DNA of 40,403 bases, taken from assembly GCA_944323705.1 (NCBI GenBank), contig CALUTM010000013.1:1-40403 (forward strand), given 5' to 3'. Made by a program: the position numbers and the translations under genes. The number at the start of each line of letters is the position of its first letter. Within the stretch, counting starts at the first letter, position 1. Of this stretch, positions 1,440-40,403 are shown one piece after another. This stretch comes from Candidatus Gastranaerophilales bacterium (GTDB lineage: Bacteria; Cyanobacteriota; Vampirovibrionia; Gastranaerophilales; Gastranaerophilaceae). The notes under the pieces were generated by a model. The model did not search any database. It saw nothing but the letters and a program-made list of their open reading frames with translations, and had not been told where the DNA came from.

Positions 1440-1535
1440 AATGTCTGCAGACCATATTCCTACGTATGTAGTATTCCGGCTTTAACGGTTGCGGCACAGT
1501 CACGGATTTCCACCGTAGTTTCCTCGTATTTAGTT
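1440..1535 (-). promoter_or_regulatory. Cobalamin riboswitch
   Basis: Read on the minus strand, the leader contains the conserved cobalamin-aptamer core in the right order: GAGGAAACTACGGTGGAAAT, then CCGTGACTGTGCCGCAACCG, then the B12-box-like AAGCCGGAATACTAC. These match the family landmarks GGAA..GGTGnAAATCC, GACTGnnCCGCAACnGT and AGCCnGGAnAC. The aptamer is compact, with little between GCAACCGT and the B12 box. The palindrome GTCTGCAGAC (1443-1452) can fold on itself or pair with GGTCTGTC around 1399-1408, a plausible switch helix before the ATG at 1376. It controls the two minus-strand unknown genes, not the divergent MATE gene. Confidence 0.88.
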
Positions 1536-1544
1536 TTATTTAAT

Positions 1545-2968: not shown

Positions 2969-3760
2969 ATGCCACACTTCTTTATAGGAGGGGTAAATGT
3001 AGGGGAAGGGGTAAATTCAGGAACAAATACAGGCGTAGGACGCACAAATGAAACAGCCCTTTCAAATACAATAGCTCCACCGCTGATTATAATAAAAGAT
3101 GCCGATAATTACCGTCATATTGCCCGCTCACTAAGGGCAAGGACGGGAGAAAAACTTTTGCTGATTGACGAAAACCAAATTCAGTATGAAACTGTTATAA
3201 AAAAAATTAATTCCAAAGAAATTATTTGTGAAATAGAAAAATCATACCTCTCAAAAAGAGATTTGGATTTTGATTTATTCCTTGCACAAAGCCCTTTACG
3301 CAGCGATTCACAGCTTACGATAATGGAAAAAGCAACGGAGCTCGGAGTCAGGGCAGTGTATCCGGTGTTTACGGACAATTGTGCCCTGAAGGTCAACAAG
3401 CGTGAAAAATGGCAAAAAGTTATGTATGAAGCTTCAAAGCAGTGCGAAAGAGCCAAAATTCCGACTTGCTTTGAGCCGCAAACGTTTGATGAAATACTCA
3501 AAAATAAGTTTGATAAAATTATAGTATTTGCAGAACGCTCAACAGAAAAAAACTTGAAACAATATCTGAAAGAAAATCCGATTTACAAAGGCGAAAAAGT
3601 TTTGGTTATTATAGGACCGGAAGGCGGATTTTCGCAAAGAGAGTTTGATTATTTTAAGGCAAAAAACCTTCCGCTTATATCACTCGGCGATTTGATTTTA
3701 AAAGCCGATACAGCAGTCATTACCGCACTTGGAGATATTATTTATGAATATCAGGGATGA
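2969..3760 (+). CDS. rsmE: 16S rRNA (uracil-1498-N3)-methyltransferase RsmE
   Basis: RsmE methylates N3 of U1498 in 16S rRNA using SAM. The protein has the N-terminal PUA-like part (MPHFFI, then IIIKDADNYRHIARSLR) and a C-terminal SPOUT/trefoil-knot domain with LAQSPLRSDSQLTIMEKATE, the SAM-loop VLVIIGPEGGFSQREFDYF and LGDLILKADTAVITALGDII. At 263 residues it is slightly long because about 30 Gly/Asn/Thr-rich residues (about 8-38) sit between the first strand and the rest of the PUA domain. That insert is encoded partly by GGGGTAAAT repeats. The ATG at 2969 has the ribosome site AAGGAG. The 3' end overlaps cca by 17 bases, so the two are co-transcribed. Confidence 0.95.
   Translation: MPHFFIGGVNVGEGVNSGTNTGVGRTNETALSNTIAPPLIIIKDADNYRHIARSLRARTGEKLLLIDENQIQYETVIKKINSKEIICEIEKSYLSKRDLDFDLFLAQSPLRSDSQLTIMEKATELGVRAVYPVFTDNCALKVNKREKWQKVMYEASKQCERAKIPTCFEPQTFDEILKNKFDKIIVFAERSTEKNLKQYLKENPIYKGEKVLVIIGPEGGFSQREFDYFKAKNLPLISLGDLILKADTAVITALGDIIYEYQG
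2987..3018 (+). repeat. GGGGTAAAT repeat inside rsmE
   Basis: Two copies of GGGGTAAAT (within GGAGGGGTAAAT at 2987-2998, and again near 3008-3018) lie inside the coding sequence, in the part encoding the atypical Gly-rich insert. The 12-mer GGAGGGGTAAAT recurs exactly at 40122-40133, and GGGGTAAAT recurs in the non-coding spacers near 20979, 21100 and 21425 (reverse) and in the 109-bp repeats at the window end. Confidence 0.65.
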
Positions 3761-5449: not shown

Positions 5450-5857
5450 CTAAGCTTCAGGAGTTTCCTCAGCAGAAGCTTCCTCTGCGGGAGCCTCTTC
5501 TGCAGCTGCTGCTTCAGCCGCTTTTGCAGCCTCTTCAGCTTTTCTTGCTTCTTCTTCAGCTGCCTTTTTAGCCTGAGCCTTTTTAGACAATTTAACAACT
5601 TCTTTCTTTTTATAGTTCAAAGTACCGTCATCATTACAATTTGCTATCAAATACTTAACCGTATCCGTAGGTTGTGCACCTTTGGAAATCCACGCAAGTG
5701 CCGAAGCCTTGTTAAGTTTCATTTCTTTTGTTTTAGGATTGTAATGACCCAATTCTTCAATCGGTTTACCTTCTCTTTTTGTCGTTGAGTTAATTACGAT
5801 AACTCTGTATGAAGGAGATTTTTTTGCTCCTAATCTTTTTAATCTGATTTTTAACAT
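5450..5857 (-). CDS. rpsP: 30S ribosomal protein S16
   Basis: Residues 1-85 are the complete small-subunit protein S16, which binds 16S rRNA and supports 30S assembly. They include MLKIRLKRLGAKKSPSYRVI, the GKPIEELGHYNPKTKE loop, and WISKGAQPTDTVKYLI. The usual length is about 80-90 residues, whereas this one has 135. The extra C-terminal tail of about 45 residues begins with a KKAQAKKAAEEE helix and becomes almost purely Ala/Glu/Pro. It is low-complexity, acidic and probably disordered or helical. AAAGGAAT is the ribosome site before ATG 5857. The gene stands alone, with its own terminator and a structured leader, rather than beside rimM/trmD as in many bacteria. Confidence 0.96.
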   Translation of the reverse strand: MLKIRLKRLGAKKSPSYRVIVINSTTKREGKPIEELGHYNPKTKEMKLNKASALAWISKGAQPTDTVKYLIANCNDDGTLNYKKKEVVKLSKKAQAKKAAEEEARKAEEAAKAAEAAAAEEAPAEEASAEETPEA

Positions 5858-20862: not shown

Positions 20863-21590
20863 CTCAAATTGCAGTCTCGCTGCACGTTCACCTTTGAAAG
20901 CTAATGTCTAATATACCAAGAAATTCCCTCTCCTAACAGGAGAGGGTTAGGGTGAGGTGTCAATCTTCTACAGAAGATTGGGGTAAATGCCGTTGATATA
21001 CAATATAAAAAGTTATTGTCGGGCAATGCCACGACCTACAAGCTAGTGAATAGTGACTAGTGAGGAGATTTTTGTCGGGCTAGTTTTACGTCATTCAGAG
21101 GGGTAAATGTAATCAGTCTAGGGTTATATTTACTAATCCTACGTCTTTCAGAGGGCGGGAGAAATAAAAACGGTTGGACGTTAAAGTATCATATCAAGCC
21201 CGATGAATCTCTATTTCTGTCATTGCGAGACTGATTAAGTCGAAGCAATCCAGCTTTTTATAAACTTTGATTTTTGTAATTCGTGAGTAGTAAAGAAGTG
21301 ACTAAGTGACGGAGTGATTAAGTGAATAAGAAGTTAACACTTAAGAGATTCTTCAGTCGTTTCGCTTCTTCTGAATAACGAGAAAATAGAGAGATGATTC
21401 TTCTGTTACATTTACCTCATTCACCCCCATTTACCCCCTGAATTCCGACAAATTCGCAATAGTAATTTTATCCGTCCTGCGACGGCTTTTATAAGACTTT
21501 TCAAACACTTCACACATGTTGCATAGCAAAATACTACTGAATAGTTTGATACAATCTCTGCCGCAACATGCCGACAAAAGCCTCTCAATA
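20863..21590. repeat. Repeat-rich 728-base non-coding spacer
   Basis: No gene is seen. Recognisable pieces, left to right: a REP-like hairpin CCCTCTCCT/AGGAGAGGG with TTAGGGTGAGG (20926-20957); a hairpin CAATCTTCT/AGAAGATTG directly followed by GGGTAAATG (20961-20988); direct repeats TACGTC-TTCAGAGGG (21087-21103 and 21140-21155); GGGGTAAATG near 21100; the widespread TCATTGCGAG...GAAGCAATCCAG element (21220-21253); degenerate AGTGANTAA heptads (about 21291-21325); and inverted CATTTACCCC near 21428. It looks like a graveyard of small mobile repeats. Confidence 0.65.
21220..21253. repeat. TCATTGCGAG...GAAGCAATCC REP-like element
   Basis: ATTGC and GCAAT arms enclose GAGACTGATTAAGTCGAA. This type of TCATTGCGAG-(n)-GAAGCAATCCAG hairpin is a commonly seen dispersed intergenic repeat in many bacterial genomes. 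Confidence 0.6.
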
Positions 21591-40114: not shown

Positions 40115-40403
40115 AGAAGGTGGAGGGGTAAATATAACTGTCCGACTTGTAAGCTTACTTTTGAGGAACACTTGTGGCTTTTATTCAAGCTTGGCTTCTT
40201 ACCTATGTGTTCCGACCAAATGTCTACGTGCGGGGGTAAATATAACCTCCCAACTTGTAGACTTTACTTCGAGGAACACCTCTAATTTCTATATCTGCTA
40301 GGTATTTTACAAAATGTGTTCCGACCAAATGTCTACGTGCGGGGGTAAATATAACCTCCCAACTTGTAGACTTTACTTCGAGGAACACCTCTAATTTCTA
40401 TAT
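40115..40403. repeat. 109-bp tandem palindromic repeats (about 2.7 units, open at the edge)
   Basis: From 40206 the unit TGTGTTCCGACCAAATGTCT... repeats exactly at 40315, a period of 109 bases. Each unit has nested inverted repeats GTGTTCC/GGAACAC and GTCTAC/GTAGAC around a GGGGGTAAATATAACCTCCC core, so it can fold as a hairpin. A diverged copy (GGAGGGGTAAATATAACTG ... GGAACAC) spans about 40115-40205. The second full copy is cut by the window end. No gene is seen here. Confidence 0.85.

Follow-up and report, generated by a model that had tools for sequence, protein, structure and literature searches.

The window analyzed here is a whole contig (C13, 40,403 bases) of a Gastranaerophilales genome of 1.93 Mb in 87 contigs. 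It carries rsmE, the product of which matches RsmE structures of the PDB in sequence (E = 2.8e-23) and also in fold; among named relatives, the nearest to it come from Candidatus Gastranaerophilales MAGs. The gene and several intergenic stretches of the window contain the 9-bp core word GGGGTAAAT:

2969 to 3760, plus strand: rsmE, 16S rRNA methyltransferase E, 263 aa, host of the insert (Pfam Methyltrans_RNA and PUA_4)
2987 to 3070, plus strand: repeat-derived loop of variable length between the first strand of the PUA domain and its remainder, with two exact and some degenerate GGGGTAAAT units
2990 to 2998, plus strand: core copy 1, translated Gly-Val-Asn
3008 to 3016, plus strand: core copy 2, translated Gly-Val-Asn
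20980 to 20988, plus strand: intergenic core copy adjoining a second (palindromic) repeat family
21100 to 21108, plus strand: intergenic core copy
21409 to 21438, minus strand: short array between genes, with the core unit in about three 10-bp copies
40120 to 40403, plus strand: tandem units of 108 to 109 bp, each starting near (G)GGGGTAAAT, which run off the contig end

The second, palindromic family (CCCTCTCCT..AGGAGAGGG, as a rule with a tail resembling GTGAGGTGTCAATC) lies at 20926-20946 and recurs in this genome at L078, L087, L109 and other loci. It was found near GGGGTAAAT sites, in stretches chosen for GGGGTAAAT. An ORF on the minus strand (600-1376) contains a CPHGMSPGACPICSGMGGGGS stretch. 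Another (5450-5857, minus strand), which we take to be ribosomal protein S16-like, has an Ala/Glu-rich low-complexity C-terminal tail, and tandem repeats seem abundant in the corresponding part of relatives' loci. An Rfam scan of the window returned only an AdoCbl-II riboswitch (1465-1542, minus strand) above the gathering score.

The insert in RsmE is a loop of variable length

The original prediction held that this RsmE is split after MPHFFI by about 30 residues encoded by a small mobile repeat. A Gly/Asn/Thr-rich stretch does directly follow MPHFFI, which ends at position 2986; the net extra length is 17 to 24 residues. The loop has 39 aa in this genome as against 22 aa in the closest species with a short loop, and most of the other aligned members of the genus have 15 aa. 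Both predicted copies of GGGGTAAAT are present, and the 12-mer GGAGGGGTAAAT at 2987-2998 is matched exactly at 40122-40133, near the window end. In the genome this 12-mer has 9 occurrences and its reversed control none. The repeats at the window end had been described as palindromic. They proved to be tandem units, in which no inverted repeat of at least 12 bp was found, and short complementary arms in their predicted fold agree weakly with the description.

In the AlphaFold model of RsmE, based on a 39-sequence alignment, the mean pLDDT is 84 and residues 9-30 fall below 50. The model thus predicts disorder for the insert, which would form a loop joining the first strand to the remainder of the PUA domain. 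Alignment of relatives indicated that it is not specific to this strain: GGGGTAAAT arrays of varying copy number occupy the same loop in several congeners, and the relatives' loops hold 0 to 3 exact copies. Three species of another subclade have loops of 27-35 aa with 2 or 3 copies, and a sister species, the RsmE body of which is 95% identical, has a 32-aa loop with no exact copy. In three species (L132, L133 and L135) the rsmE bodies are nearly identical and the loop sequences differ, suggesting very fast loop turnover or recombination.

GGGGTAAAT is enriched in nearly all genomes of the genus

The window contains GGGGTAAAT eight times, a number that none of 100 shuffles reached (mean 0.49), and genome-wide there are 283 copies as compared with 22 of the reversed word. 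We extended the counts to fragmented assemblies, mostly MAGs, with one genome per species. The 34 genomes of the genus hold 5835 copies of GGGGTAAAT versus 402 of the reversed word, and the ratio exceeds 4 in all except G006, where it is 2.1. Another 23 genomes, from outside the genus, contain 446 and 277 in all, with a median ratio of 2.1 and values near background in most; a few have a high ratio, but on tiny counts. Of the 34 genus genomes, 20 have strict arrays of three GGGGTAAAT units (12-bp units, 3-bp linkers); none of the 23 others has one, and the reversed word forms no three-unit array in any of the 57.

At loci not chosen for the repeat, GGGGTAAAT was the most frequent word starting with GGGG (60 occurrences), followed by an overlapping, shifted word (24), the remainder reaching at most 17. 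The lack of comparable enrichment among other words with a leading GGGG speaks against the G-run as the sole cause. When 9-mers of relatives' rsmE loci were ranked by their ratio to the reversed word, GGGGTAAAT (51 versus 1) stood near the top, though not first, the top being dominated by words from the conserved genes themselves. Tandem Repeats Finder (TRF), used with a lenient threshold on relatives' rsmE loci, reported 144 short arrays, of which 3 contain the core. Since short tandem repeats are common at such a threshold, many of them coming from one alanine-rich tail, our case is built on word counts and three-unit arrays rather than on TRF.

Arrays in genes keep the reading frame

Among 201 of the 283 sites, those of unique context, multi-copy GGGGTAAAT clusters were found 35 times between genes and 17 times in ORFs of at least 110 aa. 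Core copies lie mostly 9-18 bp apart. All 27 coding core-to-core spacings are divisible by three, as are 18 of the 44 non-coding ones (p = 8e-8). The test is in part circular, since an array out of frame would disrupt the very ORF that defines it as coding. Spacing that keeps the frame in genes and is free outside them is what is expected of a DNA repeat filtered by translation. Neighboring linkers of an array are the same in 8 of 28 pairs, as compared with 0.9% between arrays, and in 16 of 30 when three-unit arrays are taken (30 loci, some of them with the same array twice). Such identity of neighbors points to local duplication.

The original prediction had also proposed a search for repeats of this kind inside other genes, and in-frame arrays were found in MurC-like, IlvD, NuoJ, LeuS and other proteins. 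In a Pfam scan, 19 of 20 proteins belonged to an ordinary family, the one without a match being an array-bearing ORF on L111; a doubtful 117-aa ORF on L114 stayed outside the scan. The hosts with the word in the sense direction (names beyond the Pfam family are assigned by us) include RsmE, a NIF3-family protein, a CoA-disulfide-reductase-like protein, a U32 peptidase, a phage portal protein, an acetolactate-synthase-like enzyme, a MurC-like Mur ligase, an RsmD-like Cons_hypoth95 methyltransferase, a sodium:alanine symporter, NuoJ, IlvD, an Asp/Glu racemase, leucyl-tRNA synthetase (LeuS) and an SLT protein. An Omp85 protein and a UvrD/PcrA helicase, named in the same way, carry it on the opposite strand. 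Depending on the gene, GGGGTAAAT is translated as Gly-Val-Asn or Gly-Gly-Lys, or from the other strand as Phe-Thr-Pro or Leu-Pro-Pro; the third sense frame holds TAA. The use of several reading frames indicates a DNA repeat rather than a protein motif.

Gain and growth across relatives

As far as the aligned sequences tell, relatives mostly lack each insert or carry it with other copy numbers. The 28-residue insert of MurC is missing from 15 of the 16 congener rows covering the site, and G019 has a smaller, different one. The array is found in none of 19 congener rows for NuoJ and in one of 16 (G019) for LeuS. IlvD has GVN arrays of their own in G019 and G029. The same IlvD loop shows an in-frame insert resembling the second, palindromic repeat family in G007 and G014, and still other extra residues in G008, G012 and G016. 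In the gene for the CCA-adding enzyme, downstream of rsmE, 79 of 81 aligned rows show no gap around KLFGGK, and it is exactly in this segment that the other two (L167 and L168) are expanded, by 9 and 21 residues.

We also looked for GGGGTAAAT at the insert sites of rows free of the insert, leaving out those with an array or another insert (1 for MurC, 4 for IlvD, 1 for LeuS, 2 for the CCA-adding enzyme). One exact copy is present at the expansion site of the CCA-adding enzyme in 8 of 43 nearer rows and at the NuoJ site in 1 of 19. A copy with one mismatch occurs at the MurC site in 2 of 14 rows and at the IlvD site in 1 of 12, and the LeuS site has no such match in 15 rows. The best match in the insert region ranked in the top 5% of gene windows in 33 of 103 rows, which are not independent, 23 of these belonging to the CCA gene; for IlvD it did so in 1 of 12 rows and for NuoJ in 1 of 19. 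Near the C-terminus of LeuS, several species have a native single core that is unexpanded there. From these comparisons, seeding at a native word or a near match appears clear for the CCA-adding enzyme, suggestive for MurC and weak elsewhere.

Discussion

We consider it probable (about 0.72) that the RsmE insert belongs, as one locus, to a word-specific minisatellite family found across the genus, which duplicates locally and is tolerated in protein loops. The idea of a mobile repeat tolerated in frame would then stand insofar as a dispersed repeat lies in frame in RsmE and in many conserved proteins; what is dispersed looks like a tandem minisatellite and not like a discrete mobile palindrome. 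The invariant part of the family would be the 9-bp word GGGGTAAAT. The family would grow by local addition of tandem units some 12-15 bp long, as suggested by the linkers shared within arrays and the copy-number differences among relatives, and growth may at least sometimes start where a gene already held GGGGTAAAT or a near match. Spacing would be free in intergenic DNA, and the survivors inside genes would be frame-keeping units without an in-frame stop. The outcome would be flexible Gly-Val-Asn or Gly-Gly-Lys loops at permissive positions, in frame as observed, disordered as predicted for RsmE and presumably tolerated in the cell. Replication slippage is a putative route of duplication; in its simple form it does not account for the dominance of one word over other G-run words.

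We considered the possibility that a G-quadruplex formed by the G-rich strand stalls replication and thereby drives expansion. A precedent is provided by the CEB1 minisatellite in yeast pif1 mutants, as described in PMC2673046, and every unit does contain a GGGG run. If such a run were sufficient, other GGGG-starting words should not lag so far behind GGGGTAAAT as the counts above show; many sites, moreover, have only one or two copies. We regard a quadruplex-driven expansion as a less likely alternative.

Insertion of copies by a mobile element, as with Rickettsia palindromic elements or REP/RAYT, appears unlikely. GGGGTAAAT, which would be the end of the element or its target site, does occur at many unrelated loci and in both orientations, it often stands at the start of longer units (about 54 bp and 109 bp), and the genome has two Y1-type transposase genes. 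Yet the 201 sites of unique context that were read, out of 283, share no conserved sequence beyond the 9-bp core and a weak 12-15-bp periodicity: alignment of their flanks gave no longer consensus, and no transposon-end-like sequence was seen. Neither the RsmE insert (z = -1.61) nor an array of 54-bp units (z = 1.09) folds notably better than shuffles, and the nearest exact cores are more than 400 bp from the two Y1 genes.

A word-specific process acting in trans may be imagined to attach further GGGGTAAAT-type units wherever a match already exists, turning seeds in protein genes into loops. It could take the form of templated repeat addition, for example, or of a cycle of site-specific nicking and fill-in, and would amount to telomere-like addition inside a bacterial chromosome. 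We give this reading a small chance.

It is quite improbable that GGGGTAAAT is a functional signal, such as an uptake sequence or a protein-binding site, accumulated by selection. Single copies do appear more numerous than chance would give (56 single-copy clusters in the set examined, versus 22 reversed-control matches genome-wide). However, those in genes are oriented 14 to 14, and a signal of this type is not expected to lengthen proteins or to form arrays of variable spacing.

Selection of Gly-Val-Asn repeats as protein linkers, with the DNA repeat as a by-product, would account for the preferred sense strand, the G-rich strand being coding in 14 of the 17 clusters in genes (opposite in 3) and the word being in the sense direction at 21 of 22 ORF-borne three-unit array loci. 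This preference may instead reflect tolerance of Gly-rich loops, or the process itself. The word is also translated as GGK, FTP and LPP, and it abounds, freely spaced, outside genes; we hold selection for linkers to be very improbable. Finally, an assembly artefact at repeats is hardly credible: some contigs (e.g. C6, C9 and C13) do end in GGGGTAAAT repeats, but independent assemblies of different species have in-frame, stop-free inserts at the same loops, with differing copy numbers.

If the minisatellite reading is right, one DNA repeat keeps inventing protein sequence in conserved, probably essential enzymes throughout a genus. Related species would then represent natural before-and-after pairs and a ready set of loops for studying the tolerance of proteins to insertions, and the question why a single 9-bp word can multiply would become directly testable.

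Comparison with known systems

No description of this repeat family was found in open-licence papers on tandem repeats in Gastranaerophilales, on in-frame repeats in Melainabacteria or on broader subjects, nor by the word itself, where the best 20 of 207 were covered. The family behaves like a minisatellite or VNTR in that its head-to-tail units differ in number among relatives. The likeness to Rickettsia palindromic elements put forward in the original prediction holds for the outcome: according to PMC10969869 these are small dispersed repeats in frame inside unrelated genes and also between genes, and the presence in unrelated protein genes is found here too. Unlike those elements, which that paper gives as about 150 bp with a conserved peptide, the present units are of about 12 bp, tandem, not palindromic and read in several frames. 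The insert has neither a palindromic fold nor transposon-like ends, and no palindromic element some 100-150 bp long that encodes a conserved peptide was found. REP/RAYT, defined by a tetranucleotide-tagged palindrome and by elements flanking a Y1 gene, was discarded on account of the missing palindrome at the insert and the distance of the cores from both Y1 genes.

The STRR of filamentous cyanobacteria are likewise short tandem repeats in the genomes of a related group, but PMC2670836 describes them as usually made of 7-bp units and non-coding, whereas we find a 9-bp core with varying linkers, often in genes; the heptanucleotide class was rejected for this core and its spacing. Intragenic tandem repeats of Legionella pneumophila (VNTRs) also differ in copy number among strains. 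According to PMC2639597, they are 26 separate repeats, in contrast with the single word recurring here in many genes of a genus. Tandem repeat coding DNA is also dispersed within genomes in the family of PMC2996958, which reports a structured repeat of 25 residues in ORFs without assigned function, many of them membrane-targeted; the GGGGTAAAT family instead forms short loops in housekeeping enzymes, predicted to be disordered in RsmE.
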